Source: a virus. From it: a stretch of DNA of 64,000 nucleotides. The translations under genes and the position numbers were made by a program. The stretch covers positions 32,472-96,471 of IMG/VR virus record IMGVR_UViG_3300042892_001857; one strand, 5' to 3'. Shown here in pieces: positions 36,346 to 56,870 of the stretch; within the stretch, counting starts at the first letter, position 1, and every line of letters begins with the position of its first letter. The notes under the pieces are model-generated. The model searched no databases. It was not told where the DNA came from and saw nothing but the letters and a program-made list of their open reading frames with translations.

Positions 36346-39300
36346 TTAACAGAATGGGTATATACAACCTGCAGTAAATGTTGAGTAGTTACTATCAATA
36401 ACATTACCATTTAATAATGTTGCCGATATTCTTATTCTATAATTATGAACCGGATTTGAAGGTGGACAAGGTCCATTCCATCCATTAAAATTATCACCTG
36501 AACCATAATCTGTTGGTTGAACATTACCACTATTCCAATTACCATTTATAGGTATGTTTAATTGGGTCGGGTCAATATCCGTCACCCACCAATGGATGAA
36601 ATATCCATCAGGACTACTACCTGAAGCATCTATATCTTCACAAAGTATTTCATAACTCACAACATTTGAAACATCGAACGAATTTAAAATCCAATTCATC
36701 TCAGGAGAGTCATTAAATTGGTAACAAAACGATGAATAATACGCTGTTGGAATAACATTTCCTTCAGTATATGTGTTACTGTATAATGTTATTGATGGTT
36801 CTCCCTTTTTACAAGTTGAAAAGATATCAATGTTGTATTGAGTGGTTGATTTTTTATCACACCTAACCGTATACACAAAACCAATTTCACTATTACTACT
36901 TGTTTGAGAAAATACTGATGCTCCATTATACGTAACATTTAAAGTAACCACACTATTAGTTACATTTGGTGTTAATACAATTTTTACAACGTCACCCTCA
37001 TTTGTACCTAAAGTACTAATAAATACATTAGCGTCAAAGGTTGAATCAAATGAATAGATTAAAATATCATTAATATATATATTACCACTTGCGTTAGACC
37101 TAGCACAATCACTCCAATTTCTTAATTTAGTAGGACAGTTTGATTTAACAGGAACAATAACAGTATCTAACAGTTTAACACATTCTTCACAAGGTTTAAC
37201 CCCATCACTACCTGTATATATTGTTGGCGACACATCGTCAAACCAATTATAATCATAAGTTGTTCCACCCCAATTGTTCTCTAATTGAGCTAAATCACTA
37301 GAAATCTCTTTCAATTCCCAACAAAGTTTATTTGTAAAGTCCAAAATAACACCACCAACAACGTTACCCGGAACCGCAGGAACCGGTTGAATAACTACAG
37401 TAGTTTTATTCGGTCTTTCTCCGCATATTAAATAAGCGTAATACGTTTTCTTAGAAGACGGTGTTGGAGTCATTGTCATTGTTTGAGTTGGGGTTTGAGT
37501 TTGAGTTGGAGTATTTGTCGGAGTTTTAGTTGGAGTCTGAGTAGGAGTTTTAGTTTGAGTAGGGGTTTGAGTATTTGTAGGCGTAACTGTAGCCGTATTT
37601 GTTGGTGTTGGTGTTGGAGTTGGAGGTATAGACCCAATTGTTGGTGTTTGACTTGGAGTATGAGTTGGTGTTTGTGTTTGAGTTGGCGTATTTGTCGGAG
37701 TTTTAGTTGGTGTTTGAGTTTGGGTAGGCGTAACTGTCGTAGTATTTGTAGGAGTAGGTGTTGGTGTAAGACAACCAAATTCACATTCAATATCGTAATC
37801 AATTCTCATTTTAATTAAAACATTAGAATTATGTAACGATTCCGGTTCACAATTTGTTGAGATTGTTATTTCATTTGTTAATGGATTAATATCAACATTT
37901 CCCGGACCAATTTGAGGGCACGATTCAATCAATGATGCGATTGTTGAGTACCATAAATTATCTGAAGGGTAATCCTGCAATGTAGACCCTGTATAGAATG
38001 TTGCGGAATTAACACAGTCACCAATGACTGTTGACGCTGAGAATATTGTTTGAGTTAAAAGACAATTTTCATTCCCTATAATTAATTCGGCATATCCCTC
38101 ATTTAAATATTGTCTAGGACCTGAGTAAATTTTCATAGGTTTGTTTAATTCACCTAAACAAACATTAGAATAACCTACTTGGTTTTCGTAGACTTTATCT
38201 CCCCTAATACCCATTCTTTTCGCTTTTGAACACCCTGAACTATCTACAATTCTAACCTCATAATCACCCGGAGGTAAATCAGTTATTTCCATAACAGTAG
38301 TTCCAACAGTATCTCCATCAAAATATAATGTAAACGGTGGTGTCCCGTTTGTTATATAAGATGTTAACGAACCATTACTATTAATAGAGTCAGTACTTAA
38401 TAAATGAAAATCAATAGTATTTGAACCATCAATGGTAAACGGAGATGATTGATTACATAACAATGCGTCTGTCACATTTGCAATATAATTACCTGAAAAT
38501 AAATTAGTAAAAGTGTATGACGTAAATGAAGTTGATATAGATTTACCATTAATTGTATACAAATAAGGTGGAGTTCCACCTGAAGTTATTTCCAATTTAA
38601 CCGACCCATCTTTTCCGTTACAAGTTGTTCCGGTTGTGGTAACTGTTAAATCATACACAACATCATTATTAATGACGTAAGTCCCCATAAATACACATAA
38701 AGCAGAACCTGAATCAGATACTGTTAATGAATATGTTCCTGACGATAAAAAATCAAAAATCCAAGTACCACTATCTGATGGTGTTTGACTGTCTGAATTA
38801 CCGTCAGAATCTGTTAAAGTAAATGTATAAGGAGCAACCCCACCAAAAACTTGAATAGGACCTATTGCTCCTGATGAATCATTACACTTTGAGTTTCTTG
38901 TATTAACAGAAACTGTAGATATCCCCATAGGAACTTGTAGAGTAACTGTTGCTGTAAACGTACATAACCCGGCATCAGTAACTTGAATTGTAAATCCTCC
39001 AGCACCCAATCCACTAAAGACAACAGTTCTGTCAAAAGTAATATTTGTTACACCATTTGACCCTAAGTAATAAAATGGTGGTGTACCGCCGGTTATAGTT
39101 ATACTAACTTCACCATCACTACTAAAACAAGTCGGTTGTGTTAAATAAGCAACACCAAAACCAACGGGTTCTATTTTACCAACAAACCCACTTTTACTTA
39201 TACTACATCCTGTATTATCTGTAACTGTCACAGAGTATGTCCCTGTCGATAAATTAGAAATAGAATCCCCAACACTACCGTCAGACCATAAATACGTATA

Positions 39301-39918
39301 TGGTGGGTTACCTGTTAATCCTGAAATAAACATTTTTCCGGAATTAACTGCACATCCCGCATCGTTTACAATGTAGAAACCATAATCAATTGTTGTTGAA
39401 TTTTTAATAATACAAGTCTCAGACTTCCCGGTACAACCACCTCCGTCATCAGCAATCACATAATAAGTTCCATAAGGTATTGTTGTGAATTCAAATGTGT
39501 TTGAATATGATGCCCCTGAGGATACAAACCCTGTTGTATTATTATATAAACTAAAAGTTGATATATCATACGCATTAATTGTTGACGCAATTAGAGAACC
39601 ATTATTGAACCCACATAATGTGTTGGTTGCTGATGTTATTGTAACACAGGTTCCACTAGATATAATAATATTTACCGGTAATATTGTATTGGTTGGAGCA
39701 CAACTATCAATAATGTTGAATGAATACGTTCCTGCGGATAAACTTGTTGCGTTATATGTTGTCGCGCTTGGACCTAATGAAATAGTTGTTGCCGATGGTG
39801 ATAACCATTGGATGGTATAATCAGGAGCTTCACCAATAATATCAATGGTGAACGAACCTGAATTAGTATTAGCACAATCTCCTGTTATACTAGCGTTATA
39901 TGTTAAATTACAAGGCAT
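36346..39918 (-). CDS. SprB-repeat and PT-linker tail adhesin, 1190 aa
   Basis: A 1,190-residue modular protein. Residues 1-570 contain about seven SprB-type repeats, recognisable by a cysteine, a Gly-rich GxPPYxYxW core and a closing [13 protein letters not shown] (for example [20 protein letters not shown]). A threonine/proline linker runs about 716-820 ([20 protein letters not shown] and similar), then a C-terminal region with cysteine pairs. SprB repeats are the hallmark of the flavobacterial gliding adhesin. The phage has probably borrowed the fold for its fibre, to bind glycans or to display variable loops. Most other SprB-type units of the window are in the plus-strand island, so the two strands share modules. 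Confidence 0.8.
37458..37770 (-). repeat. PT-rich low-complexity coding repeat
   Basis: About 310 bases encode Thr-Pro-Thr units with a loose 6- to 24-bp periodicity, interrupted once by IGSIPP. The units differ at silent sites, unlike the 60-bp repeats at 27781, so this linker is older. Long open frames on the other strands here are by-products of this composition. Confidence 0.8.
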
Positions 39919-39921
39919 TTT

Positions 39922-42900
39922 TTATTGTGGACAAGTTATATTAAAGTTTATTCCTACATTTATACTTATAGTTGTATTTAGTGGAGAAACAGAACAATTT
40001 ATGTTCCATATCTTAACTTTTGTTGGTGGTGAACCTATTTCATCATTAACTGAACGTTCATAACGATAATCATACCCCATTAATATTAAAGTAGAAAGAC
40101 TATTATTTAACGCTGTTTCCCATGCAGATACACAAGGCATCGCATCACTACAAAGGTAACCAACCGGGTTTGAGTATCCTACCCCATCAAAGAACACATC
40201 TTGAATAATATTAGTTCCATTTATACTTATGTCAACAAACCATTCACTAACAATTGTTCCGTCTCTATAACACGACCCAACATCTATTCCATTATCGGTT
40301 TCCCACTGATTAATAACATCACTAAAAACACCACTAAAACTATCAAATTCCATTACATTTTCCGGATATCGATTACATAAGGTATACCAAACATCACAAT
40401 TAAGTTGATAAACACTACCCGTGAATTTACAAGGTTTACAAATAATTGGTACCAACGCACACCCTCTTTGTCTTCTCCAAACAAATTTTTGTCTATGAAA
40501 AATAGAATTCTCTAATTTAACACCCGTATTCCAAATTGTAGTTGCCGGAATCATTTGTTCAACTAATCTAATCCAATAATCACCCATACCTTCAACATAC
40601 TCAATCATTGTTTTGTATGTGAAGTTATCATTTGGAATTCCAGCTAAAGATTCTGATTGTAAATAATTCCAATATATTGATGATAACGTTGGATATCCAC
40701 TTGTTCCACCATCTGTTGCAAATTGTCTATTTCTAACATTAATTGTGTTTTTCCAAAATGTTTGAGCAAACTCAAAAAAGGTTTCTTTCCTTGGTTGGGG
40801 ATTAATAAGGGTTGAGTCAACACCACCGTTATGTGGATAAGACGATACCGGATTAGGGTTACATCTTGTTGGTGCAACATAACCCAAACCTTGATTATTA
40901 ATTGGGAAGTTGTATTGTCTTGACATATACCAAACATCGTAAGATAATCCTTGAGAGGGGTTTAAGTATAAATCAATATTTTTAACATTAATAACTAAAC
41001 CTTCTGCCCCAACATTATATAATGCGTTATACCCACCATCTAAATTATTTCTATCCCCAATTTCACTATCAACCCACGTTTTATTGTTATCTACGGCTGT
41101 TCTTATGTTATAACCTAAATCAGTAAATGGGAATGATTTATATACATTCAAATATTCTTGCCCATAAGTAAATGGAGCTAATTTTGTTTGATAATTAGGA
41201 TTTGAACCTGTGAACACACTATTAGTTAAATCCGGTTGTTCTAATGACCTATGTTTTGGTGTTGATTCAAACCAACCAGCACCCATCTGATAAAAATATG
41301 TTTCAGAATTACCCGGTGACATAGGATATCCACTATCACTAATTGGATAATCTCCTTTACTTAAATCAACTTCTTGAAGAACTGATGTTGTTGTAAAACC
41401 AGAATATTGAACCCCTTGTATATTGAATGTATATCCACTCTCTAATGTCGGTAATGTTTTAGAATATGTTCCACCCGATATTTTAGCATATTGAGAGTCG
41501 AACTCTGACATATTAATTCTTTGGTCAGCTAAACAAACATACTCATTAAAATCAATTAAAGCGTCCGGAGCACCAATTAACCTCATTAAAGTTTCTATGG
41601 ATTTTCTAGTCCCTTTTGATTTAAACAAATAGGCGGAATTAAGAACTAAATTCTTATAATATTGGTAGTTTAACTCGTCAGGCGTTTGAGACTGTCCTAC
41701 ACCACTAAAAGCGGATTTATCAACATTCTTTTGACCAAATACCGAACCTAAAAAGTCCTCGTTAGTAATTGGGGACATATTTGTCGCCCAACCTAATGTT
41801 TGTGATAAATTTTTTAGTAATTGAGACGGAATATCGTTTCCGGTGTTATAATTCACCGAATTCATATAAGCTAAACCATTAATGAATTTCTTAGTTTCAT
41901 CAAAACTTCTACCGTAAATTTGTAATATTTTTTCAATTTTTTGGTCAGAGGTGTCAAATTCTTTAAGTGAATCAGTTGTTAAAAATCTTGAAACAAGATT
42001 TGTTTGATATCCATCAAAAGACAAACTAATCTCATTTAATGTTGTTAAATATATTGTAAAGGAATTGGTTAATATATCCAAATTCCAATTACCATATAAC
42101 GGCCAAGTCACTAACTTATTTTGAATATAAAAAGTTCCATCATCGTTTTCATTTGGAACTTGGAAAGTTGCTGTATAAATAGGAACAACATTTCTATTTA
42201 ATAAAAATCGTTGAACTTCATCCAAATCCTCATTAAGAACTCTATTAACCTGATAATCATTTGGTCTAATAACTAAATCATCTTGTGTCTGAGTTTGACC
42301 CGGAAAAACATCACCTTTAAGGTATATTCTAAGGGTTCCTGTAGTTGATGACGTTGTTGGCTCAATATGAGTAACATCAAATCCAACACCACCATAATAT
42401 AAGGAGTATTTGGCAAATTGATTTGTCATATTTCTTAAAGGAGAAACTTGAATCTCTCTTAGTTCTAAATTTCTAGTTGCGTTAACAGTAAAATCAATAT
42501 CAAAAGGGTTTCTAATTCTTGAAATATCTAAATCAATACTTGTTTCATTAACTATTGGATTATATGAAATGTTTGTCGCAGTAGCTCCGGTTAAATAGTT
42601 TTCATCCATAAAAGTAACCTCCAACGCTGCCGGAAATTTACTAATAATCATTTCAACCGATGTTGAAATTCTTTTAACCATTGAACCGTATGATGTAAAA
42701 TTAGTTACTTCAGTTAAATCAAAATTAGGATAAACTTTAAAATTGTTTTCAAATATCACCTTTGATTGAACAACACTATTAACCCCCATACTATCTAAGT
42801 TAATAGGGTTTGAGAATGCTCCTGTTGTAAAAGTTCTATTTGATTTTTCCTTAACTCCTCTAGTGAACTCAAAATTTCCTTGCGTCAATCCACCCCCCGC

Positions 42901-42987
42901 AACAAGTTGGAATCCAACTAAATTATCGGAGAATGTACCTGCACCGGATGCTGTCTGTGGTGGACACGTAAATTTTTCTATTGCCAT
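39922..42987 (-). CDS. Large tail/baseplate protein, 1021 aa
   Basis: A 1,021-residue virion protein. The centre has SKGTRKSIETLMRLIGAPDA followed by LIDFNEYV (about 454-480), a motif I associate with large tail proteins encoded near gp6 and gp25 in T4-like phages. Near the end (WRRQRGCALVPIICKPCKF) there is a cysteine cluster. No enzymatic domain or membrane segment is seen. It probably forms part of the baseplate or attaches the 1,190-aa adhesin, whose gene starts 3 bases downstream. Assignment is from context and motif. Confidence 0.75.
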   Translation of the reverse strand: MAIEKFTCPPQTASGAGTFSDNLVGFQLVAGGGLTQGNFEFTRGVKEKSNRTFTTGAFSNPINLDSMGVNSVVQSKVIFENNFKVYPNFDLTEVTNFTSYGSMVKRISTSVEMIISKFPAALEVTFMDENYLTGATATNISYNPIVNETSIDLDISRIRNPFDIDFTVNATRNLELREIQVSPLRNMTNQFAKYSLYYGGVGFDVTHIEPTTSSTTGTLRIYLKGDVFPGQTQTQDDLVIRPNDYQVNRVLNEDLDEVQRFLLNRNVVPIYTATFQVPNENDDGTFYIQNKLVTWPLYGNWNLDILTNSFTIYLTTLNEISLSFDGYQTNLVSRFLTTDSLKEFDTSDQKIEKILQIYGRSFDETKKFINGLAYMNSVNYNTGNDIPSQLLKNLSQTLGWATNMSPITNEDFLGSVFGQKNVDKSAFSGVGQSQTPDELNYQYYKNLVLNSAYLFKSKGTRKSIETLMRLIGAPDALIDFNEYVCLADQRINMSEFDSQYAKISGGTYSKTLPTLESGYTFNIQGVQYSGFTTTSVLQEVDLSKGDYPISDSGYPMSPGNSETYFYQMGAGWFESTPKHRSLEQPDLTNSVFTGSNPNYQTKLAPFTYGQEYLNVYKSFPFTDLGYNIRTAVDNNKTWVDSEIGDRNNLDGGYNALYNVGAEGLVINVKNIDLYLNPSQGLSYDVWYMSRQYNFPINNQGLGYVAPTRCNPNPVSSYPHNGGVDSTLINPQPRKETFFEFAQTFWKNTINVRNRQFATDGGTSGYPTLSSIYWNYLQSESLAGIPNDNFTYKTMIEYVEGMGDYWIRLVEQMIPATTIWNTGVKLENSIFHRQKFVWRRQRGCALVPIICKPCKFTGSVYQLNCDVWYTLCNRYPENVMEFDSFSGVFSDVINQWETDNGIDVGSCYRDGTIVSEWFVDISINGTNIIQDVFFDGVGYSNPVGYLCSDAMPCVSAWETALNNSLSTLILMGYDYRYERSVNDEIGSPPTKVKIWNINCSVSPLNTTISINVGINFNITCPQ

Positions 42988-45094: not shown

Positions 45095-45973
45095 TTATGG
45101 ATTTATATATTCATACCATTTTATTGGAACTGATGTTCCTCTTCTTACACTATTATCCCAAACTTCATATGTTTTTTCATTATAATTTAACCTTACCTCA
45201 TAATAAAAATAAATCTCAGGGTCAAACATAAATTTTGATGTAATATTACTTTGTGGTGTATTTGTCATTTTAACAAAAACACCCAATCTAGCATCAAAAA
45301 ATTTTGCTGTCATATAAAATTTACTAATGTCTAAGAATTTTTTATTTCTTAACCAATATAGAAAGAACCCTTCTTTGTCACCCACATAATCTAACTTAAA
45401 TGATGGTATTTTAATTTGAACTGAAGGTTTATACGAACTCACAACTTCTGTTACCGTAAACCCTTGTTGCACAGGTAATATCACTGTAAAATAATTAGTT
45501 TGAGTGATAGTATCTTTACTATCATAAAAATCCAATTTAAAGAAAGATTTAGTAAATGGTTTTACATAATAATATATTTCACTTATGGTAAATCCTTCCG
45601 GAACATAACTAGTCACCCAATAACTTGACGGAGCAGTTGTTACTAACGAAGATGGATTAACAGGAACCGTTGGAACTAAATTACCATTTGAATCCAACTG
45701 TAAGTCACTAAAAAAATGAAAATCGTATTTAATATCCGTTTTTGTATCACTACTATACGGTGCGTGAGCAAATCTTAATACTTCAAAATCCCCCGGAAAT
45801 CCAACAATATCCTCAACAACATTTTGTTGATATTCTTCAACGGCATCACCTTGCCCAAGAAAATCCCATTTAATTTCAATCGGTATATTGATATATTTGT
45901 CGTCACCTTTTGGTAAGGTAAATTTATAACTGTTATTATTCACAATCGTCTTTTGTTGGTTGAGCAGCTCCAT
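45095..45973 (-). CDS. Tail structural protein, 292 aa
   Basis: A 292-residue beta-rich protein without cysteines and without a recognised domain (YINIPIEIKWDFLGQGDAVE at the start; YFYYEVRLNYNEKTYEVWDN near the end). Its start overlaps the end of the 625-aa gene by 38 bases. The overlap is between intact genes in different frames, not a frameshift of one protein. Inferred tail component from position. Confidence 0.65.
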   Translation of the reverse strand: MELLNQQKTIVNNNSYKFTLPKGDDKYINIPIEIKWDFLGQGDAVEEYQQNVVEDIVGFPGDFEVLRFAHAPYSSDTKTDIKYDFHFFSDLQLDSNGNLVPTVPVNPSSLVTTAPSSYWVTSYVPEGFTISEIYYYVKPFTKSFFKLDFYDSKDTITQTNYFTVILPVQQGFTVTEVVSSYKPSVQIKIPSFKLDYVGDKEGFFLYWLRNKKFLDISKFYMTAKFFDARLGVFVKMTNTPQSNITSKFMFDPEIYFYYEVRLNYNEKTYEVWDNSVRRGTSVPIKWYEYINP

Positions 45974-47813
45974 AAAGAGTTGCGTAATTATTTAAAGTAC
46001 TTTCTATATAATTAGTTCCTTCCGGTATTATTCTAAAAATAAAATTTTCATATGGATAATGTTTTCCATTTAAAAATGGATAATCAACACCATTACCGAG
46101 ACCATCATTAAAACCATAGGTATATAAATCTCTCCAAATAAATGAATTGTATGTTGTTGAAAAATATGAGTAATCCGGAACACCCACCATATTGTTAATG
46201 CTACCTGTTTCTATATAATCAGAAAACCCTCTTATTTTCATTCGTCTATTTGGTTTGTAGTAATAACCAAATTGATTATTATTCATATCTACCAAACTCA
46301 TATCAAACACATCAGTATTAAATGTAAACTTATGATACATTTCAGAAATAACTCTTTCTTTTTGTTCATAATCATTCCACTCACAGTAATTACCATTTAT
46401 TGTGTCACCACTTTTAAGTGATTTAAGATATGTGAAATCAATATTTATTCCATTCACATTACCACCATAAGGTGTGTTATAATACCCCGTTGGATATGCG
46501 TTATTATTTGAATCCACAAAATTTGATTCTACCGTATCCACATCCCACCAAGTTTGTGGGTTATTAAACTGAGTATCCGGTGGTAAATTAAAATCAAACC
46601 CCTGTTTTAATCCCACATCATTACCATTACTATCAACACCCCCAAAAGTTAATCCAAAATACCCTTTCCAAATTGTTGTAATATATAACTCACTAATTGG
46701 TCGTTTTTGATTGTCACGCAACTCACTAACATCAATATCTTTATTAAACGATAAAGTATATGATTGAGCATTTTCTTTAATTGAAACTCTCTTTACATTA
46801 TTTGGTGTATAAACAGGACTTTCAAATTTCTTTTTAGTCCCAAATATATTTTTTTCAAACCCGGCATTAACTAAAACAGCGTCATTAACATCTGTAATTA
46901 TTTTATGTTGAATCACATAATATTTGGATGTAGTATCATTAGGGTTTTCATAATTTATAACTCTTTTAAATGTTCCTGTAGTTTGGTCATCCACAAAAAT
47001 TGAAGACCCGTATCCGATATTAAATATGTTAAAGATATACTCATTAGTTCCCGGCAAACCGTCTCCAAAAGAAAATACTTGATATGTATTAACATACCCA
47101 TTATTTAATTTTATTTTTACAAATTCAGATTCCGATAATCCGTGTTTAACGGGACATCTAAATTGAATTATAGGGTTCCCTCCCTCCATAATATCATTAC
47201 CGTCATTATCCTTACTATTAATTATAAAAGGAATCCCATCAACAGCATTCCAAACAAAAGTAGGAACATTAGACCCGGTACCATCATAAAAATTCATAAC
47301 CTTATCTATGTTCTTATATGGATAACTAACAAAATGATTCCAATTATAGGTTGAAGCACTTCTAGCGACAAAATCAACGTGAACCTGTGGTTGTCCATTT
47401 GGAATTGTTGATGGTATTGGAACCGTGTATCCCGAAACATTGTAATCACTTCTAATAAAATCAAACTCATCATATTGGGGAAATCCTTCCCAACTTACTG
47501 AGGTAGACAACGCCCCACATTGTCTTAAAGTTAACGCAGTTTCATTAATGTAATATAAATTATTTTCTAATGGTTCATAATTTGTTGAACCCGTATATGA
47601 GTTATTAAATAACACTTGAAACTTACAAACCGGTCTAAATGTTGTCGATTTTTGCCTTTCATCGTTAAATATTTGAACTAAATTAACATCAATACTCCTA
47701 TCAAATTCTTCAAGATTTTTTGTGTTTTGAACCAATGGTGTTGGTATCGATAAATTAGTGTCCGTCGACGTTTTATACCTTAACGACCCTAATACTATTC
47801 TTATATCATCCAT
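45936..47813 (-). CDS. Tail structural protein, 625 aa
   Basis: A 625-residue protein with a beta-strand-rich, aromatic composition. It starts MDDIRIVLGSLRYKTS and contains RCPVKHGLSESEFVKIKLNN, a pattern I take to be a carbohydrate- or partner-binding strand set. One base separates it from the 1,884-aa gene. No enzymatic motif. It is presumed to be a baseplate or fibre-connector protein. Confidence 0.65.
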   Translation of the reverse strand: MDDIRIVLGSLRYKTSTDTNLSIPTPLVQNTKNLEEFDRSIDVNLVQIFNDERQKSTTFRPVCKFQVLFNNSYTGSTNYEPLENNLYYINETALTLRQCGALSTSVSWEGFPQYDEFDFIRSDYNVSGYTVPIPSTIPNGQPQVHVDFVARSASTYNWNHFVSYPYKNIDKVMNFYDGTGSNVPTFVWNAVDGIPFIINSKDNDGNDIMEGGNPIIQFRCPVKHGLSESEFVKIKLNNGYVNTYQVFSFGDGLPGTNEYIFNIFNIGYGSSIFVDDQTTGTFKRVINYENPNDTTSKYYVIQHKIITDVNDAVLVNAGFEKNIFGTKKKFESPVYTPNNVKRVSIKENAQSYTLSFNKDIDVSELRDNQKRPISELYITTIWKGYFGLTFGGVDSNGNDVGLKQGFDFNLPPDTQFNNPQTWWDVDTVESNFVDSNNNAYPTGYYNTPYGGNVNGINIDFTYLKSLKSGDTINGNYCEWNDYEQKERVISEMYHKFTFNTDVFDMSLVDMNNNQFGYYYKPNRRMKIRGFSDYIETGSINNMVGVPDYSYFSTTYNSFIWRDLYTYGFNDGLGNGVDYPFLNGKHYPYENFIFRIIPEGTNYIESTLNNYATLYGAAQPTKDDCE

Positions 47814-47814
47814 C

Positions 47815-50800
47815 TTAATTTATAACGTTACTAGTGTTTATCCATTTTGTTCTAAATCTATCAAATGCCGACGCTCCTCTTCTAAGTCCAAAATAAAAGT
47901 GAAATGGCGCTCCGACAGTAATCAAATCTGTTTCAGGAGTATTTTGACTCCAATATTGTGGTTTTGCAGTTATTGAGTTATTTTGGTAAGTTGGTAAACT
48001 ATTCCCATTAGTGACTGCGTATATGTAACCTTTAAAAAAGTCATTTTGTGACTGATTAGTAGTTCTAAAATATCTAGATACCGGTAATAACCTATCCAAA
48101 GATTGATATTTTGAAGAAAAAATTGTTTGAAAATCCCAATCATTTGATTCACCACCAAAAATACTTCCCGCATGCTCACCACCACCATCAATTCTCCATT
48201 GTGATAATGGAACTTCTTGAGAATAAACTGTAAAATTATTAAATGTACAAATACTTGATGTTGTCCCTGTTGGATTTATTATTGTTCTTTTTGGTGAAAC
48301 ATAATCTCTAATTTGAGTATCCGATGAAAAGAATATTCCCAAAGAATTCTTACAATCAAAGAAAATAGGGTTTTGAATACCAGGGTCAACCAATGCTGTT
48401 CCTGTACCTGTTCCGGGACCTGTTGCGATAAATGTTGTTGTTCCCGCAACGTATCCCGGAGGTGCTCCAATCGACGTAAAATCTGTTGGGTTAGAAGCCG
48501 TTCCACCCGACAAAATTTTATATCGAATACCTGTTACAAAACCACCCGCACCTACCGTTGTTGGTGCATCAGGATAATTCGACGATTGGAATGCTGCAAC
48601 ACCTAATTCAGAATTAATTGAAATTAATTGAGAGTAATCAGCATCAATTAAATATTTCCCTTTTCTACTATTTTGAAAATACGCAAATATGTTAAACGCC
48701 CCTAACAAATTATTTAAAAAGTTATTATCCATAAATCTACTTATAATAAATAAATTAAGGATTTCATCAACGTGAGAATACGTTGAACTTGTTAACTTAT
48801 TAACCAAGTATCCGTCATACTCGTCAGACATCACCAATTCTTGTAAAAAGTCCGCTCTAGGACCCAAATCCATAATTGTTGTTGGATACTTTAGGTCAGC
48901 ACTAAATTCACCTGAATTGGAGTCATAAGGTGAACATCTATAATAAAAACTTCTAGATGGATTATGATACATAATAACACTATTACATTTCTTTCCTTGC
49001 GGAAAGTTTGGTGGATTTGATGTTGGAGAACTAAACCCACTAATCTCATTTTTAAATGGAAAAGCATATAATACTCCATTCACCCAATTATTATTAAATC
49101 TGTGAGAAAACACATTTCTACACGCACCAAGCATCACCATATTTCGAGCAATCCATTCAAACATTAATTCCCAATCTCTAAATAAAGAAATAAATATTGT
49201 TGTAATAAAGACATAACATCCACCCACAAAAATCGTTTCACCCTCATATTGGAGACAATCACCACCTCTCGGTCTTACGAATATAGTACTATTTACAGGA
49301 CTTGGAGTACAACCATAACAGTCCAAATTAACGGAACCAGCACAGGTAAAAGTGTTTATAACTCGATTTATTTTTGGAGAACCAACTAAATCTTCCCTAA
49401 CATCATCTAAAGACCCGTTACCAAAAGACCCTGTTGACCCCGCTATTGAATTTATCCCGATTACACCTGTCGAAGGTATTAAATACAACGTTAATTTACT
49501 GTTTTTTTGTAAAACACGTCCATTACAACAGTATTCCTCAACAACAGTCCCTGTCGGTAATCTATCGCCTCTCATAACAATTTGATTATTACTAGCACCA
49601 GAATAAGAACCAACCCTACCTAATGTAAAATTCATAGTATTTCCCGTACTATAGATTGGTGAATAATAATACGTTAAAACTCGAGTTGGAGGAAATCGAT
49701 AATCACCGTACTGATACCAATATGGAGTATCGGATGGGTCGAAATTAAGGGAAATTCTTAAATATTGAATGTCCATGAGCATCATTGATGCTCCCTCAAC
49801 AATCTCATTAGGAATATATCCTTCAGTCCTACCTGTCACATTATAGACACTTGGATTATCTGGAGTAGGTACCTGCATATAACAGTAACCATTAAAATCC
49901 CTTATCATCCCATAAGGAGTGTATGTATACGCTTTAGTAAAATCATTATTTAAACTTATTCGTAAACCAAATGGTGAAGAACTTGCACCATTACTTACGG
50001 TAGGTGTATTCGGATAAGCTCCATTTGATAGTGAATCATCACTTGTTTGAGTTGTCCCACGTAAAGGTTGTGCGTTTTTACAACTTGGTGCGTAAAATAG
50101 TGAACGATTATCTAAGTTAGAATAATAACTAATTAAGTTTGAATTAAACCCTGAGAATCTAGATGTCATTTGCGTCCAAGTAGACGCTGTCACTCCCTGA
50201 GTATAACCTGTAACAAATTGCCAAGTTTCTTTTTGATTAGGACAATAAGAAAATGAGTTAAAATATAAATTTTGTCCAATAGCGTACCCTGTTTCAGTAT
50301 TAATATTTCCACCTACCGTTGGTTGGATTCCACCTACCCAAGTAGCCCCTGTCACATAATTTGGTGTGCTACCAGTTGGTAATGGTGTCCAAGCAGGTAA
50401 TGGTGTTGTAACCGCCCTTTCATTACCATCGTGACTAATATTTAAAAATTTACCCTGAATCGGAATATTCATTCTATAGTAACCACTAATCTCAACATCA
50501 CTTTCATTTTGATGTCCAAAAAGTTTACCAATACCATATTTAATTGGTATTTTACTGGTATATGGGTCAACACCTCTATTTAATATCACAACAACGTTTT
50601 CATTACGGTTTCTAACATAATTCATCGAATCATACTTTTGAACTCCAAAAGGTATTGGGTCTGGATGTGTGTTACCATTAGGTCGATAATAACAATTTGG
50701 GTTAAAAATAGTACCCGTCCAATCCCGTCTTCCTCCATTAATAGTTGAGAACAATTGAAACAAAGTCGACTCATTTCTGAAGTATTTTTTATTTAATGAA

Positions 50801-53469
50801 TTAGGTAAAGTATTTACACATTGACCACTAAAATTACTGTATGTCATAGCAGTAATAACTTGGAAATATTCTATATCAATAGGGAATTTATGGGTATTTG
50901 TAGTTGTTTTTGCACTATATGGACCAGCATCATCAAATACTCTAACATCATAAGTAGTTGATAACATACTACTAATACCGTTAGGATGTGCGTAATTAAC
51001 TGTCACCGTTGTATCACCTGTATATGTTGTTCCTGTAATTGCGTTGTTATTAAATATATTTTTAATACCTCCCGTTAAATTTGGGTCTTTACTAAAAGTC
51101 GGATTTTGAAAAGCCAACATTTCTCCCGCAACTAATCTTCTAGCAGTTGATTTATCACATAATATTACAATAGTATTATCTTTATGAAATTTACCCGGAT
51201 TACGTGCTTCGTCAAAAGTAACATTAATTCTATTAACACCACCTCCCGGATTAGTTGTACCACTATTAAAATATTTCGCTTTAACATTAAATAAGTTAAT
51301 TCTATCCGCCATTGGTAATGCGTTAGTAAACCAATCATACGCAAAAGATGTACTATCACCCCCTTCACCCACAGCAATAACCTCACTTTGTAAGTAAGGT
51401 GCTCCAATAGTGGATGACCCATATTGATTATCAAATTGATACCCCGCAAAATCATTAGCAAAAATAACTTTTCTTTGACCCGGAAACCCATTTGGATTTG
51501 TCTCAGCATTAAAGGATGGTAATTTAAACGTTGCAAAGGTAGATAATGGAACACTTATTAAACCAGCATTTAATGGTGATATTGGTTTAGGGTCTGACGA
51601 TATTGTTGGACACGGTACTAATTCATTTTCTTCATCCTCATCATTACCATCCGGGTCAGGGTTTTCATTAACACTTTGTCCTTGTTCACAAGAACAAAGG
51701 TCACAATCCGGATATGTTAATATAGGAACTTTTATCCCTTTTAAGTCAAGTTTCCATAACAGCCTTAAAATATACGCCAAAAGAAGTCCTAATATTATAT
51801 ATATAACTATCATAGCCAAATACCCCGCAATCATCCCTAAAGCATATGGAACACAACCAAGAATCAATATCCCGTAGTTAATAATACTAATAGCACACCA
51901 AACAATTAATCCAGGTATAACTATAAGCCTTAATAACCACACAACAAAATATAAAATGTGCATCACCAATATTAACGCAAAGAATACCGGTGTAAGTATT
52001 ATACTGAAAAACATAAAAATTATGTATAGTATGTCAAACCTAAAATTACCATCATTTGTTGGAAATTTATTATTTTCAGTTTCACAAGATTCCTCTAAGA
52101 TATTTTTAATACCGACATACCTTTCACTTCCGCTACCCCCTCTATGATTATATATAAATTCTGATACAGTATAAACTTTATTATACTGCATTATGTAAAA
52201 CTTATCATCACAATTTATAGCGTCTTGAATCATTTGAGTATTTCCATAATCATTCCAATCAACGCTAAAAGCATACGATTCAAATTGATTGGAACTATAT
52301 TCTCTAATATTTGGTACTAAAAAATAAGCTCTTTTAGTAAGGTCTGATAATGATGGTGATTGAGACCATTTTACTTTAAATCTATATTTTGCTTTAGTTG
52401 GGATACCAACCTCAGGGTCATTTGAAAGAACTTGTTCTCCAAACTCATTGGTTACATAGTAATCCATATTCATTGGGACATCTACCAACCAAGTTCCGTT
52501 TTCATCAATAACTTTACCACCCCCCTCTAAACTAAAATTTTCAAGAATAGGTAACCCGTTAGAATCTTGTTGTATTGTTTGTCTAATCGCCAATATTTCA
52601 CCGGGACCCGTAGTTAAACTACATTGATACCCCGACCTGTTAGTTGGTTTACAATTAGACTTTAATGCGTTAGTATCTGAGTCAGAAATTATAGAACCCA
52701 TAAAAATAGATGTTGGTCGAATATCAACATTCGCCTCACTACTTAAATCAAAATCTGTTCTTGTTATACCTAAATTACAAATTTCAGGTTGTCCCCATAA
52801 TGGTTCAACCTCAATACTTCTATTTACCGATACAATTTGTGGTAATTCTCTTAAATTATTTGATGATTTAAAATTTGTTCCGGATACTTGAGCTTCTGTT
52901 GCAAGACCCATTCTAATCAAATCTTGAGGTGATAATGAAAATTCTCCAATGTCAGACAAATCAACATCTAAAACAATTAGATGAGCACCAACAGGAACCC
53001 CAAAAATCATATAATCACCACTATCGTTTGTAACCGCATTATATTTATAATACTTGTCGTAAACTTCAATTAAAGTTGGGTTAGTTAAAACATCCGTTCT
53101 AGTGAAAAATGTCCCGGTAGGAACGTGAGCACTATATGATGGTTTATAGGGTAGTAAATTATATCTATAACCATCATCATTATTATCTAACAATGATTTA
53201 TACGGATATAACTCAGAAATAATTGGGTCAGCTTGGTCTTTACTATCTAAAGGTATGAAGATAGATACTTTGGCATTTGGAACACCAAATCCATTATTAA
53301 CACTAACACGTCCAACAATAACACCATAATCAGCACATTGTCTAGTATAGATGTCTGTTTGTAATATTTTTAAGGATAATATTTCTAAATGTTCGAACTC
53401 TTGGTCAATTAATACTTTAACTGAAGTGTCAACACCGACCTTTGTTCTTATTCTATAAGATTTTGACAT
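47815..53469 (-). CDS. Giant tail protein with central membrane-spanning block, 1884 aa
   Basis: The largest gene in the window. The N-terminal 47-173 region has a carboxypeptidase-regulatory/Cna-B-like beta sandwich (VSVNNGFGVPNAKVSIFIPL and NDSGDYMIFGVPVGAHLIVL). Residues about 475-570 form a dense hydrophobic block with four to five membrane-spanning segments (ILYIIFMFFSIILTPVFFAL, MIVIYIILGLLLAYILRLLW). This is followed by a CDLCSCEQG cysteine cluster (about 587) and an acidic linker. The remaining 1,250 residues are beta-rich. A membrane block inside a baseplate-region protein is unusual; it could be carried folded in the virion and insert into the host inner membrane during DNA entry. 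This is inference; no close family is known to me. Confidence 0.8.
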   Translation of the reverse strand: MSKSYRIRTKVGVDTSVKVLIDQEFEHLEILSLKILQTDIYTRQCADYGVIVGRVSVNNGFGVPNAKVSIFIPLDSKDQADPIISELYPYKSLLDNNDDGYRYNLLPYKPSYSAHVPTGTFFTRTDVLTNPTLIEVYDKYYKYNAVTNDSGDYMIFGVPVGAHLIVLDVDLSDIGEFSLSPQDLIRMGLATEAQVSGTNFKSSNNLRELPQIVSVNRSIEVEPLWGQPEICNLGITRTDFDLSSEANVDIRPTSIFMGSIISDSDTNALKSNCKPTNRSGYQCSLTTGPGEILAIRQTIQQDSNGLPILENFSLEGGGKVIDENGTWLVDVPMNMDYYVTNEFGEQVLSNDPEVGIPTKAKYRFKVKWSQSPSLSDLTKRAYFLVPNIREYSSNQFESYAFSVDWNDYGNTQMIQDAINCDDKFYIMQYNKVYTVSEFIYNHRGGSGSERYVGIKNILEESCETENNKFPTNDGNFRFDILYIIFMFFSIILTPVFFALILVMHILYFVVWLLRLIVIPGLIVWCAISIINYGILILGCVPYALGMIAGYLAMIVIYIILGLLLAYILRLLWKLDLKGIKVPILTYPDCDLCSCEQGQSVNENPDPDGNDEDEENELVPCPTISSDPKPISPLNAGLISVPLSTFATFKLPSFNAETNPNGFPGQRKVIFANDFAGYQFDNQYGSSTIGAPYLQSEVIAVGEGGDSTSFAYDWFTNALPMADRINLFNVKAKYFNSGTTNPGGGVNRINVTFDEARNPGKFHKDNTIVILCDKSTARRLVAGEMLAFQNPTFSKDPNLTGGIKNIFNNNAITGTTYTGDTTVTVNYAHPNGISSMLSTTYDVRVFDDAGPYSAKTTTNTHKFPIDIEYFQVITAMTYSNFSGQCVNTLPNSLNKKYFRNESTLFQLFSTINGGRRDWTGTIFNPNCYYRPNGNTHPDPIPFGVQKYDSMNYVRNRNENVVVILNRGVDPYTSKIPIKYGIGKLFGHQNESDVEISGYYRMNIPIQGKFLNISHDGNERAVTTPLPAWTPLPTGSTPNYVTGATWVGGIQPTVGGNINTETGYAIGQNLYFNSFSYCPNQKETWQFVTGYTQGVTASTWTQMTSRFSGFNSNLISYYSNLDNRSLFYAPSCKNAQPLRGTTQTSDDSLSNGAYPNTPTVSNGASSSPFGLRISLNNDFTKAYTYTPYGMIRDFNGYCYMQVPTPDNPSVYNVTGRTEGYIPNEIVEGASMMLMDIQYLRISLNFDPSDTPYWYQYGDYRFPPTRVLTYYYSPIYSTGNTMNFTLGRVGSYSGASNNQIVMRGDRLPTGTVVEEYCCNGRVLQKNSKLTLYLIPSTGVIGINSIAGSTGSFGNGSLDDVREDLVGSPKINRVINTFTCAGSVNLDCYGCTPSPVNSTIFVRPRGGDCLQYEGETIFVGGCYVFITTIFISLFRDWELMFEWIARNMVMLGACRNVFSHRFNNNWVNGVLYAFPFKNEISGFSSPTSNPPNFPQGKKCNSVIMYHNPSRSFYYRCSPYDSNSGEFSADLKYPTTIMDLGPRADFLQELVMSDEYDGYLVNKLTSSTYSHVDEILNLFIISRFMDNNFLNNLLGAFNIFAYFQNSRKGKYLIDADYSQLISINSELGVAAFQSSNYPDAPTTVGAGGFVTGIRYKILSGGTASNPTDFTSIGAPPGYVAGTTTFIATGPGTGTGTALVDPGIQNPIFFDCKNSLGIFFSSDTQIRDYVSPKRTIINPTGTTSSICTFNNFTVYSQEVPLSQWRIDGGGEHAGSIFGGESNDWDFQTIFSSKYQSLDRLLPVSRYFRTTNQSQNDFFKGYIYAVTNGNSLPTYQNNSITAKPQYWSQNTPETDLITVGAPFHFYFGLRRGASAFDRFRTKWINTSNVIN

Positions 53470-53537: not shown

Positions 53538-54464
53538 TTATGGTTTAAACTTATATTGTTTAACAAAATCAATAGGGTTTGATTTTTTTTCTAAAAAATT
53601 ATTAACAATACTAATAACATATTTGTGAACAGTGTTATCAATAGATGTGTGAGTTGTATTAGGAATATCAACATTAAGGACTTTAGTTATTCGATTATCC
53701 TTAAATAAGGACACTCGTCCCCCTGAATTGGTGAAGAAAATCATATTGTCCGACCATTTAACAGACATAAAGTTTATCACATAACCAACATTATCTTTAA
53801 TTTGATAATCATAGTTATTATACAATTGGTTAGCACTATCTAAGAAAACAACTAAATCAACACCAATTTTTTCTTTATTTAAATTATCCAACACCTGAGC
53901 AACATTATACCCACCAATACTATGTCCAATAAGAACAACCTTACCTGTTGGGTTAAATAGCCTAAAATACTTTACTGTTTTAAAAACCTCTTCGGACGTT
54001 AAATTATAGTTGTTTGTTCCAATATATGTAATTACACTTGTCTCTTTAGTTTCGACCTTACTTTCAACCAAACCCAAACCATCTAAGTCCCTCGACTTAG
54101 AAATGTCAATTTGAACCTCATTAGCCCCTGACACATCCTTGAATGGTCCTAACGAACCTTCAACAACTATAACTAAATTTTTGGTATTTTTATTAAAATA
54201 ATCTTGGGGGTGTTGGATTGTTTCTAATTTTCTTCTTTCATTAAAATCGGTAATATCTGAAGTAATAAAAGAACTAACAATTATTAATAAAAAAATTTGA
54301 AATTTTGTTACTTTTTTAGTTACCCTAATTTGATTAAAAAAAATCAAAAAAATAATAAAAGAACAAATCAATCTGAAGTTAAGATATAATCCCGCAACAA
54401 AACATTGAGACCAAGTCCCATTATACCCTTTAATAAAAGTTAAAATATCTGTAATATAATCCAT
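53538..54464 (-). CDS. Membrane-anchored alpha/beta-hydrolase, 308 aa
   Basis: A 308-residue protein with two N-terminal hydrophobic segments (about 25-44, and 55-70 FQIFLLIIVSSFITS) and a C-terminal serine hydrolase domain. The nucleophile elbow VVLIGHSIGG places the catalytic serine at S182. FLDSANQ gives a candidate acid (D209) and THTSIDNTVH candidate histidines (H272, H280). The family includes lipases and esterases; the substrate cannot be told. It lies between gp6 and the 1,884-aa gene, in the baseplate operon, where such an enzyme is unexpected. It may act on host lipids at entry, at lysis or in exclusion of other phages. Confidence 0.8.
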   Translation of the reverse strand: MDYITDILTFIKGYNGTWSQCFVAGLYLNFRLICSFIIFLIFFNQIRVTKKVTKFQIFLLIIVSSFITSDITDFNERRKLETIQHPQDYFNKNTKNLVIVVEGSLGPFKDVSGANEVQIDISKSRDLDGLGLVESKVETKETSVITYIGTNNYNLTSEEVFKTVKYFRLFNPTGKVVLIGHSIGGYNVAQVLDNLNKEKIGVDLVVFLDSANQLYNNYDYQIKDNVGYVINFMSVKWSDNMIFFTNSGGRVSLFKDNRITKVLNVDIPNTTHTSIDNTVHKYVISIVNNFLEKKSNPIDFVKQYKFKP

Positions 54465-54495: not shown

Positions 54496-56334
54496 TCAAG
54501 AGAAATTAACCGTTTTTAAATTTTTAACTCTAATGTTTATATCTTTGTTTGCATATTTTATTTGGTAAGTTTGGTTTGGTTCCGCAAAGATTGTATCATC
54601 AATTAACCCTATCTGATAAGTTGTACTGTCAATATATCGTTGAGATGTTTGAGATGATGAATACTGTCCACCAACTTTATTAAAGACTTGAATATCGGAT
54701 AATGAAATTACCCCGTTTTCACTTTGTATTAATCTTCTTAATTCAGAAATATTAACATTTTCACCCATTTGTCTATTTTCCGGATTAAAATATTCCGAAA
54801 CAATCGTAATGATTTGAGAAATAACTGTTCCTTGGTTTTGTGTATTATCTAAAACAACATCAATATTAAATCCTAAATCAATAACGTTAGCACTTTGTAT
54901 TGACACATAATCATTTATCATACGATAGTTTGATAAATAATTTGCAACATTATTCTTTAAAGTGTTTGAAATTACCTCTGTTAGTCTACCTGTTTCATCA
55001 TACGACAACATTTGGACAATAATTTTATTATTGTTTTCCGTTATTGATACTTTTGCCGGAGCTCCAAATTGTGAAGGCATTGTTCGGATTATTGAATCGT
55101 AATCATTTACGGTTACCGCTCTTTTTTGTGATGAGAAATTATATGAAACTAAATTTCTAACTTCTTCAGTTGTTGGGTAATTAGCTCCCCCAATCGCTGC
55201 GGTTACGTTTGTACATCTTAATGAATTTACTACAGTTGTGTTAATACTATCTGATGGTCCGTTCACAAAGAATGATACTGTACCTATTTGAGTAATTGAA
55301 TTTACACCAATATTACTACCTACACCACCACCAACTCTATATTGTATGAATAGTGTTGTATTTGGTTTTAAAGTACTACCTAACGCTAAGTTGTTGGAAT
55401 ACTTATATAGATTTAATTGATAACCATCTCTTGCAAACTCTCTTAACTGTTCGTCCGCAGATTGTGAACCACCCCCAAAAGTAATTTTTAAAAATCCTTC
55501 AGGTGTAAATTCACTAATAAACTTAGTACTTGTTTGAATGTATTTCCCCACTTTAATCCCCGGAGAATCCGATACTTTTGTTGGGTCTTCTACAAATACT
55601 CTATCTTCCGCCAAAGCATCCACTTCATACCATCTATTATCTAACCCTAAGAACTCCTGAACTGACGGTATATTAGTATACTGTGTACTATCTTTCAACA
55701 AAACACTAGTTATACCCAATACATTCTTGTCCGGTAAAAATAATTCATAAAAAGGTCTAACATCATTAGGTGTTATTACTTTTTTAAACACTTTTGTTGT
55801 TCCATTAACAACAGTTTCTCGTTTAGTAATTGTATAGTTTAATAATTTATTATTTGAATCAAAATTAGGTATTTTTAGTCTATTTGGAAAACCTTCACCA
55901 TTAATAGGTGATGAGAAATCAATATCATATACAGTTTCAAAGACTTGTCCGGCACCATTAACTTGTGACCCTCTTCTTAGAATACCACAATATCGTAAAT
56001 CTTCTTTATCCCCAAAAGCAGGAACTGTAATTGAAAAATCAACTAAAGCAACCGATGGTCTCATACCCGGAACTTTTAATCCATAAGTTTTTGCTATATT
56101 AAAAACTGACGACCTTTGTTGAGCATATTGAAGAACTGTCTCTTGAATACTTCTATCAATGTTAAATTGTAAGTTATCCGTTACCGCAGCGTTCAAATCT
56201 AATAATACAGAAAAAACAGACGCGTCATTGAAGTTTTGAATCGTGTCCGGATAATACGTTTTAGTGAAGTTAATTAACTCAGTTCTGATTGATTGGAAAT
56301 CCCTTGTTGTGTAGGAAATTTTCTTGTTTGCCAT
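54496..56334 (-). CDS. Baseplate wedge protein, T4 gp6-like
   Basis: A 612-residue protein of the gp6/BaseplateJ family, which forms the inner ring of the contractile tail baseplate. The N-terminal signature YTTRDFQSIRTELINFTKTY, then NFNDASVFSVLLDLNAAVTD and ETVLQYAQQRSSVFNIAKTY (residues about 8-85), is typical. The middle has beta-rich insert regions, and the end ISELRRLIQSENGVISLSDI is seen in gp6-like proteins. Length is close to T4 gp6 (660). It is 4 bases from the gp25-like gene, the usual T4-type order. Confidence 0.9.
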   Translation of the reverse strand: MANKKISYTTRDFQSIRTELINFTKTYYPDTIQNFNDASVFSVLLDLNAAVTDNLQFNIDRSIQETVLQYAQQRSSVFNIAKTYGLKVPGMRPSVALVDFSITVPAFGDKEDLRYCGILRRGSQVNGAGQVFETVYDIDFSSPINGEGFPNRLKIPNFDSNNKLLNYTITKRETVVNGTTKVFKKVITPNDVRPFYELFLPDKNVLGITSVLLKDSTQYTNIPSVQEFLGLDNRWYEVDALAEDRVFVEDPTKVSDSPGIKVGKYIQTSTKFISEFTPEGFLKITFGGGSQSADEQLREFARDGYQLNLYKYSNNLALGSTLKPNTTLFIQYRVGGGVGSNIGVNSITQIGTVSFFVNGPSDSINTTVVNSLRCTNVTAAIGGANYPTTEEVRNLVSYNFSSQKRAVTVNDYDSIIRTMPSQFGAPAKVSITENNNKIIVQMLSYDETGRLTEVISNTLKNNVANYLSNYRMINDYVSIQSANVIDLGFNIDVVLDNTQNQGTVISQIITIVSEYFNPENRQMGENVNISELRRLIQSENGVISLSDIQVFNKVGGQYSSSQTSQRYIDSTTYQIGLIDDTIFAEPNQTYQIKYANKDINIRVKNLKTVNFS

Positions 56335-56338
56335 AATT

Positions 56339-56797
56339 TTATATATTAATAATTACAAAGTCACTACTATTAAACACATCATTGTTGATGGTGTAATCAA
56401 TCTTAACTTTCGCTGTATGTTCTTTATTCGACATATTTGGTACCCGAAATATTCTCTCATCGTTATCATTTATATAACTACCTTTATCTTCACTACCCTC
56501 TGAGGCGGCTTGGACACTAATGTTAGTTATTGTTATCCCCGGTAAATAGTTTCCCGCGGATTCTCGTATTTCAGATTCTATTTCTGAAAATGTTGGACCA
56601 TCTAATGGTTCAAAAATAAACTCATATAATCTTGTCCCAAAATCCGGTAAATAATATCTACTACCTTTTCTTGTTAATAAAAGGTGTATTAAGTTAGACC
56701 TAATCTCTTGGTCATTATAATCTGATAAATCTAAGTATTTCCCATCAAAAGATTCTCTGAAAGGAAAAGTTAAACCATATGTTGTTCCATCTGCCAT
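56339..56797 (-). CDS. Baseplate wedge protein, T4 gp25-like
   Basis: A 152-residue protein of the gp25 lysozyme-like wedge family, which connects the baseplate to the sheath. The signature is LTRKGSRYYLPDFGTRLYEF followed by IFEPLDGPTFSEIESEIRES. I start at 56797 (MADGTTYGLTFPFRES) rather than at 56854, because the longer reading frame would begin inside the nrdA terminator stem. The first plus-strand-visible CAT at 56795-56797 is preceded by TATTTATAGTT in the minus strand. It is the first gene of the tail block. Confidence 0.9.
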   Translation of the reverse strand: MADGTTYGLTFPFRESFDGKYLDLSDYNDQEIRSNLIHLLLTRKGSRYYLPDFGTRLYEFIFEPLDGPTFSEIESEIRESAGNYLPGITITNISVQAASEGSEDKGSYINDNDERIFRVPNMSNKEHTAKVKIDYTINNDVFNSSDFVIINI

Positions 56798-56827
56798 AAC
56801 TATAAATATAGTGTCGTAATTATTTCT

Positions 56828-56835
56828 TATAAATA
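56828..56835 (-). promoter_or_regulatory. TATTTATA motif upstream of gp25-like gene (second copy at 56801-56808)
   Basis: The distal minus-strand TATTTATA is 30 bases before the ATG and directly after the nrdA terminator, a natural place for the tail-operon promoter. A second TATTTATA (56808-56801) ends 3 bases before the ATG and could not be a -10 element for a leader-bearing messenger. Confidence 0.42.
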
Positions 56836-56848
56836 GAGTAAAATAAAA

Positions 56849-56870
56849 AATCACGACCGAAGTCGTGATT
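56849..56870 (-). terminator. Intrinsic terminator after nrdA, C(UUCG)G loop
   Basis: A 9-bp stem (AATCACGAC / GTCGTGATT) with, on the minus strand, a TTCG loop closed by C-G, followed by TTTTTATTTTAC. It ends the replication/nucleotide operon 25 bases after nrdA. Confidence 0.9.

Follow-up and report, generated by a model that had tools for sequence, protein, structure and literature searches.

A giant baseplate-operon protein with a conserved hydrophobic module in large uncultivated contractile-tail phages

Results and Discussion

The locus and its phage

The window, a stretch of 64,000 nucleotides of viral DNA, encodes a protein of 1,884 residues, which we call FAM and whose open reading frame begins with ATG, as had been proposed from the sequence (Table 1). 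Genes for gp25-like and gp6-like baseplate proteins are located upstream, and a 272-kb record containing an identical FAM (G001) additionally encodes a tail sheath protein (phrog_23, E 5.4e-54), which bears out the original prediction that FAM belongs to a contractile-tail operon.

Table 1. Features of FAM and of the neighbouring genes in the window (residue numbers refer to FAM).
Feature	Position	Strand	Evidence
FAM	47815..53469	-	ORF, relatives, purifying selection
N-terminal domain, residues 1-450; transthyretin/carboxypeptidase-regulatory/CnaB-like beta fold inside	52120..53469	-	most conserved part; pLDDT mostly 70-93; fold matches
C462, ahead of block	52084..52086	-	invariant, 50/50 aligned sequences (window protein and 49 relatives)
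Hydrophobic block, residues 478-575; modelled helices 480-538, 544-573	51745..52038	-	hydropathy, alignment (P494 48/50, H504 50/50), model
CDLCSC, C589-C594, within PxLTYPDCxxCxC	51688..51705	-	C589 and C592 50/50, C594 49/50
Acidic linker, residues 601-616	51622..51669	-	sits in the fast-evolving stretch 600-720 (dN/dS)
Beta-rich region, ~850 residues (600-1450)	49120..51672	-	motif spacing, model; much shorter in L151-fetched relatives
Second, weaker hydrophobic helix, residues 1412-1432	49174..49236	-	hydropathy and free-energy scans
NNWVNGVLY motif, residues 1460-1468	49066..49092	-	common to most complete relatives (loose pattern)
gp6-like baseplate wedge protein (Baseplate_J)	54496..56334	-	phrog_219 E 8e-24, PF04865 E 1e-7
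gp25-like baseplate wedge protein	56339..56854	-	phrog_261 E 2e-16
g625, gene after FAM	45936..47813	-	within 2.5 kb downstream of FAM in 119/122 loci not fetched through gp6
g1021, candidate gp7-type wedge protein	39922..42987	-	profile matches to Mel-JY01, immuto gp109 and LR756508 proteins

Some further genes of the window, all on the minus strand, deserve mention. A 308-aa protein (53538-54464) combines an N-terminal hydrophobic segment with a GHSIGG stretch, which we take to resemble a nucleophile elbow, and gives weak alpha/beta-hydrolase matches that stay below the cut-offs (best E 0.0009). Its family occurs in 59 of 372 loci and, where gene order was compared, is encoded between gp6 and FAM, so we regard the gene as an optional insertion. 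A protein of 1,190 aa (36346-39918) contains five SprB repeats (PF13573, E 9.2e-20), a repeat of Bacteroidota surface proteins. Two adjacent genes at 1506-2897 and 2933-4330 code for proteins (463 and 465 aa) that begin almost identically, and apparently represent a tandem duplication.

bS21 (PF01165) is encoded in G001 as well as in two of five other records examined. The available text of PMC9723584 describes bS21-encoding lake phages of up to 331 kb that were inferred to be myoviral and predicted to infect Bacteroidetes; since bS21 in G001 fits these phages, the FAM phages likely infect Bacteroidota.

Relatives of FAM and their gene order

Using FAM as a single-sequence query against viral_contigs, 166 of 178 candidate stretches were confirmed, the best 80 of which were kept and represent 76 loci, and a search with gp6 as query supplied 80 loci, part of them shared with the FAM search. 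A profile search confirmed at least 594 of 600 candidates; the best 80 were kept, and among these identity goes down to 32%. From genome contigs, three of 35 candidates were confirmed, L150, L151 and L152, which stem from bins named Wolfebacteria, Mycoplasmatota and Bacteroidota and may be stray phage contigs in bacterial bins. Queries with L151 and L150 in turn led to 171 of 174 and 226 of 228 confirmed candidates on contigs of up to 413 kb, and the best 80 were kept from each. The resulting 372 loci contain 355 ORFs with the N-terminal domain, or 200 after removal of near-duplicates, 178 of them from loci not fetched through gp6. Presence of the block was counted on N-domain matches above 60 bits; 192 of the 200 were evaluable, and eight (L183, L207, two ORFs of L286, L137, L231, L327 and L119) were dropped for being too short, cut or split. 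For conservation at the residue level we used an alignment of 50 sequences, i.e. the window protein and 49 relatives, taken from 100 full-length ones among 134 matching ORFs. The groups referred to as main, L151 and L150 are named after the query that fetched them and not after metadata.

The length following the N-terminal domain varies widely across the superfamily, with relatives of about 3,000 aa in L225, L226 and L230. On a single contig, L286 (7893-14317), the FAM and g625 genes are each broken into several ORFs. Gene order around FAM is close to invariant: of 159 loci obtained without gp6 as query, 154 have gp6 no more than 2.5 kb upstream, and g625 follows at the same distance nearly as regularly (Table 1).

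Domain layout of FAM

Purifying selection is strongest on the N-terminal domain, where comparison with four close relatives gave dN/dS values of 0.04-0.11; the same comparisons yielded 0.32-0.52 for residues 600-720 and 0.23-0.27 for residues 720-1884. A WxNGxxY-type motif, searched for with a loose pattern that allows chance matches, was detected in all 55 complete L151-group members at a median of 218 residues past the N-domain, in 67 of 68 complete main-group members at a median of 927 residues, and in 26 of 31 complete members of the L150 group. FAM relatives seem to follow a common plan of N-domain, hydrophobic module and WxNGxLY domain, and since the spacing between N-domain and motif is much shorter in the L151-fetched relatives, the ~850 residues from block to motif in the window protein are probably a lineage-specific insertion. 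The cysteine cluster and acidic linker that had been noticed behind the block are both where they were expected (Table 1).

AlphaFold2 was run on two pieces of the protein. Residues 1-660 were modelled with a mean pLDDT of 77.1 and a pTM of 0.61, residues 690-1884 with a pLDDT of 72.6, and outside the block the models are mainly beta, in agreement with the description of FAM as a largely beta-rich giant. The block itself appears as the two long helices listed in Table 1 with pLDDT values of ~75-95 in ten-residue blocks; a monomer model cannot settle whether these helices face lipid or form a buried core. For the proposed Cna-B-like start the outcome was mixed. By structure the N-domain resembles transthyretin and carboxypeptidase-regulatory domains and the CnaB domains of pilins, but the scores are only middling: Foldseek against the PDB placed 3qec first with E 1.2e-3 and returned no match at or below 1e-3, VIA-align matched 2nsm with Z 8.2 and an rmsd of 1.9 over 81 residues (model residues 31-248), most of its matches spanning ~80-105 residues with Z up to 8.2, and Pfam gave no match in the window protein and CarboxypepD_reg at E 0.046 in the relative L150. 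Cholesterol-dependent cytolysins in the Foldseek list of the N-domain model (E 0.007-0.2, rmsd above 13, probability at most 0.2) were set aside. With the C-terminal model, the best Foldseek hit in the PDB had E 0.54 and VIA-align gave one row with Z 2.5, a result that does not show a new fold.

The hydrophobic block

Kyte-Doolittle (KD) averages over 19 residues peak in FAM at windows starting at 483 (2.77), 505 (2.5), 526-529 (1.8-1.9) and 550 (2.67), with one further isolated peak at 1412-1430 (2.05). We also scanned for TM-like windows on a crude apparent-free-energy scale with weights of our own; it shows minima below 1 at 478-498, 490-510, 515-535 and 548-568 in the block and at 1412-1432 outside. 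Residues ~478-575 are the sole membrane-grade stretch of this size in the protein. The original prediction of a block at 475-570 therefore holds, but its four to five membrane spans are better described as three to four TM-like windows.

In the alignment the block is preceded by a sequence of the type CxxxNNKFPTNDxxFRFDxIYxLF and closed by PxLTYPDCxxCxC. Its first half is conserved, and its second half varies in sequence yet is always hydrophobic, as is typical of lipid-facing helices. Because block and flanks are both conserved in the 50 aligned sequences (Table 1), the block is more than a chance accumulation of hydrophobic residues, and its dN/dS of 0.11-0.15 against three close relatives also points to selection (the fourth pair gave no ratio owing to saturated dS). 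In L165, L199 and L200 it has shrunk to ~40 hydrophobic residues.

Looking for the block in other phages, as had been suggested at the outset, we compared the 270 aa around and after the N-domain end with 863 stretches elsewhere in the same proteins. A segment with KD of at least 1.6 is present in 189 of 192 evaluable relatives as opposed to 22 of the 863 controls, and KD 2.0 is reached in 174 of the 192. On the strict free-energy scale, 171 of 192 relatives have at least one TM-like window in the block region, while outside of it 187 have none and five have one. The number of windows in the block differs between the groups: the main group (n=89) has one in seven, two in 47, three in 31 and four in four members, i.e. 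two to four in 82 of 89; the L151 group (n=66) has none in 17, one in 46 and two in three; the L150 group (n=37) has none in four, one in 26 and two in seven. Among 68 ORFs of at least 300 aa in the 272-kb relative, scanned in pieces with the 20-kb FAM-bearing stretch left out and with ORFs at piece ends possibly missed, none has two such windows and three have one.

Charge gives little guidance on topology, as acidic residues prevail just ahead of the block (455-480, three K/R and six D/E) and the flank behind it is nearly neutral (570-600, three K/R and four D/E). Basic residues at the block are few in the clade of the window, namely R514 as well as R569, K573, K577 and K580.

Three of the 192 relatives lack the block, so homologues without it, named in the original prediction as an argument against it, do exist but form a small minority. 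L150 (747 aa) and L152 (728 aa) are complete as judged by their stop codons; the ORF of L295 (753 aa) runs off its contig. In L150 and L295 the N-domain is still followed, ~117 and ~70 residues further on, by a WxNGxxY-type motif with the block cleanly missing, which argues for a module rather than a core needed by the fold. The motif, too, is absent from L152, whose gene may have been shortened. All three belong to the five of 159 loci without gp6 within 2.5 kb upstream and therefore may not be true FAM counterparts. The N-domain protein of L295 (7992-10262) is encoded ~4 kb past g1021 and not behind gp6, an arrangement that reflects either a paralogue or a rearranged operon. Judged from conservation, selection and modularity at the sequence level, the block is functional and tied to the baseplate operon, and its composition suits a lipid environment.

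Search for known counterparts

FAM found nothing below E 0.29 in PHROGs, where matches at E 0.29 and 0.39 were taken as chance, nothing at E 1 in Pfam and NCBIfam, and no match among PDB sequences. A tblastn search of 50,697 phage records gave no match for FAM and likewise none for the divergent relatives L151 and L150; the neighbouring gp6-like protein, used as control, matched 34 of these records. No counterpart was found in the literature on baseplates, contractile systems and phage membrane proteins, mostly non-subscription papers. The sole BFVD match to the N-terminal model at E of at most 0.001 was A0A8S5LA66, an uncharacterized protein of the metagenomic Myoviridae sp. ctPuP5 that is related to FAM residues 1-660 (41% identity over 446 columns, Foldseek E 3.3e-48). 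Apart from this one uncharacterized relative, the view that FAM has no described counterpart agrees with the libraries and papers searched, and by these comparisons its family is an unnamed protein superfamily.

FAM was compared with gp7-type wedge proteins, with which it shares a place behind gp6 in the operon. Three FAM alignments (A1, A2 and A3) reached hhalign probabilities of only 0.1-0.4 against T4 gp7 and 0.1-0.2 against proteins of Flavobacterium phage immuto, Microcystis phage Mel-JY01 and LR756508, and phrog_964, which T4 gp7 itself matches, was not matched by FAM. By contrast, g1021 matched the proteins of Mel-JY01 (E 2.3e-13), immuto (gp109, 8.3e-5) and LR756508 (1.4e-3) by profile, with an hhalign probability of 97.2 against the three aligned, and in Mel-JY01 and immuto the related large protein stands soon after gp6. 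These three proteins and g1021 show no relation to T4 gp7 (hhalign 0.1). The g1021 protein is nevertheless a better gp7-type candidate here than FAM, a naming that relies on size, position and a KGT...G stretch reminiscent of P2 gpI, for which Pfam gave no match. On profile comparison we reject FAM as the gp7-like wedge protein, and the relation of g1021 to the immuto and Mel-JY01 protein of that region makes FAM an addition rather than that protein. No FAM-like block was found among the genes examined around gp6 in immuto (14 genes), Mel-JY01 (nine genes) and LR756508 (all ORFs of at least 200 aa); one protein each of immuto and LR756508 shows a lone hydrophobic segment.

T4 gp7 is instructive all the same, since it is large, encoded right after gp6 and carries a TM-like segment, too. 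Its GenBank record notes that the 'C-terminus is predicted integral membrane domain', and we find one window of KD 2.07 at 886-904 with a free-energy window at -0.5, although gp7 belongs to the wedge and is represented in the PDB. Seven other T4 baseplate proteins, gp5, gp6, gp8-gp11 and gp53, peak at a KD of 1.66 or less, and no free-energy window below 2.7 was seen in them or in the gp7-like proteins of immuto, Mel-JY01 and LR756508. The assertion that T4-type baseplate proteins have no such block was therefore too strong as regards gp7, but holds in so far as gp7 has a single segment near its C-terminus, whereas FAM has ~95 residues behind an N-terminal beta domain and shows no sequence relation to gp7 by hhalign.

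Nor do we consider FAM a tape measure protein, given the absence of profile matches in PHROG, Pfam and NCBIfam and a separate, itself weak, candidate of 631 aa (G001:C1:41491-43383, equivalent to L376 1491-3383, minus strand; phrog_167, E 0.0043) with hydrophobic segments at ~408, 494 and 606. Tape measures such as that of TP901-1 resemble FAM in having multi-span hydrophobic regions in a tail protein; unlike them, FAM is modelled as mostly beta outside the block. According to the available text of PMC5099701, the TP901-1 tape measure needs its first hydrophobic region but can do without the second, for which the authors' discussion puts a chaperone role of these regions ahead of membrane insertion.

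Precedents for membrane contact of contractile systems

That tail parts can contact membranes is known from CISs. The accessible part of PMC8894136 describes a thylakoid-anchored CIS in which Cis13 crosses the membrane with a C-terminal helix, its removal leaving 9 of 14 particles free-floating, and in which an extension of Cis12 touches the membrane. Like these contractile-system tail parts, FAM has a membrane-grade segment and is encoded in a tail operon; as described there, however, Cis13 forms a tail-fibre-like trimer whose only TM helix is C-terminal, and Cis12, with a putative amphipathic helix, is predicted to have no TM segment, which sets both apart from FAM. CisA, according to the text available from PMC12237407, is a membrane protein required for function and firing of the Streptomyces CIS. 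Like FAM with its TM-like block, it is encoded just downstream of baseplate genes, but it is described as crossing the membrane only once and as having an unstructured N-terminal region along with a C-terminal domain in the periplasm. The resemblance of FAM to Cis13 and Cis12, CisA and the tape measures would be one of working at most.

A possible role of the block

We favour, at a probability of roughly 0.4, the reading that FAM is a baseplate component whose hydrophobic hairpin inserts into a membrane at infection. FAM would be an extra structural protein, beyond the gp25/gp6/gp7-type wedge, in the baseplate of a large group of contractile phages, with its conserved N-terminal domain docking it on the wedge and the base of the block perhaps clamped by C462 and C589xxCxC through a metal or disulfide. 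The hairpin would stay shielded in the free particle, enter a host-envelope membrane as the baseplate opens, and there hold the tail on, or weaken the membrane, during DNA passage. From the operon place of FAM we infer its presence in the virion, and we likewise infer membrane insertion, clamp and timing. A tether appears likelier than a channel because, in the clade of the window, the basic residues are weakly consistent with hairpins that leave the two large soluble parts on the same side; we claim no pore, and as the candidate tape measure has hydrophobic segments of its own, FAM is not needed to explain passage through the inner membrane. In favour of insertion we count the segment conserved in 189 of 192 relatives, the modelled helices, the gp6/FAM/g625 synteny and the modularity of the block. 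The odd or marginal window counts of the L151 and L150 groups do not fit one fixed topology, and we also count against it the missing block of L150 and L152 and the chaperone role preferred for TP901-1 in the text available (PMC5099701). It is mainly the T4 gp7 precedent, and then the varying number of TM-like windows across the groups, that keeps our confidence from being higher.

The same gp7 segment speaks for a buried core, in which the helices pack within the baseplate, on one another or on a partner protein, and never meet lipid, as may be the case for the predicted membrane domain of gp7; that many relatives have only one marginal segment would fit, too. We nevertheless think a buried core unlikely: in the window's clade the stretch runs over ~95 residues with few polar ones and two to four TM-like windows are the rule, the seven other T4 baseplate proteins examined offer no comparable peak, and L150 and L295 dispense with the block while the neighbouring parts stay. 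Membrane contact could also take place in the producing cell, since a membrane protein made there would normally enter that cell's own inner membrane: the block would insert as FAM is made, and baseplates would be built on the membrane and released at lysis. Four spans would then leave all soluble parts on one side, as the basic residues weakly back, and the available texts on the Anabaena CISs held on the membrane by Cis13 (PMC8894136) and on the CisA-dependent Streptomyces CIS (PMC12237407) provide models of this kind. Free virions would, however, bear exposed membrane segments, relatives with a single TM-like window would differ in topology and the flank charges are weak or acidic. The assembly of phage baseplates is not, as a rule, regarded as depending on an anchor, and we hold such an assembly anchor to be rather doubtful. 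That FAM is not a virion part but acts as a large membrane protein in the infected cell, e.g. as an exclusion or takeover factor whose gene happens to be located among those for the baseplate, seems very improbable: the near-invariant position between gp6 and g625, the size and beta-rich make-up of FAM and the fact that its most conserved part is a soluble domain all argue against it.

Conclusion

How contractile phages handle host membranes is still poorly understood. A very oily helical block that looks suited to a membrane would be unusual for a phage baseplate part and could bear on docking or assembly at cell membranes. Taken as a whole, we propose tentatively, at somewhat less than even odds, that FAM represents a widespread, undescribed class of baseplate proteins with a built-in membrane module, present almost throughout a large group of uncultivated contractile phages, that inserts into the host envelope at infection. 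The concrete, testable part is the conserved membrane-grade module tied to the baseplate operon across hundreds of phage contigs; if the proposal is true, it would be the baseplate itself, and not just the tape measure or the spike, that deals with the membrane in these phages.
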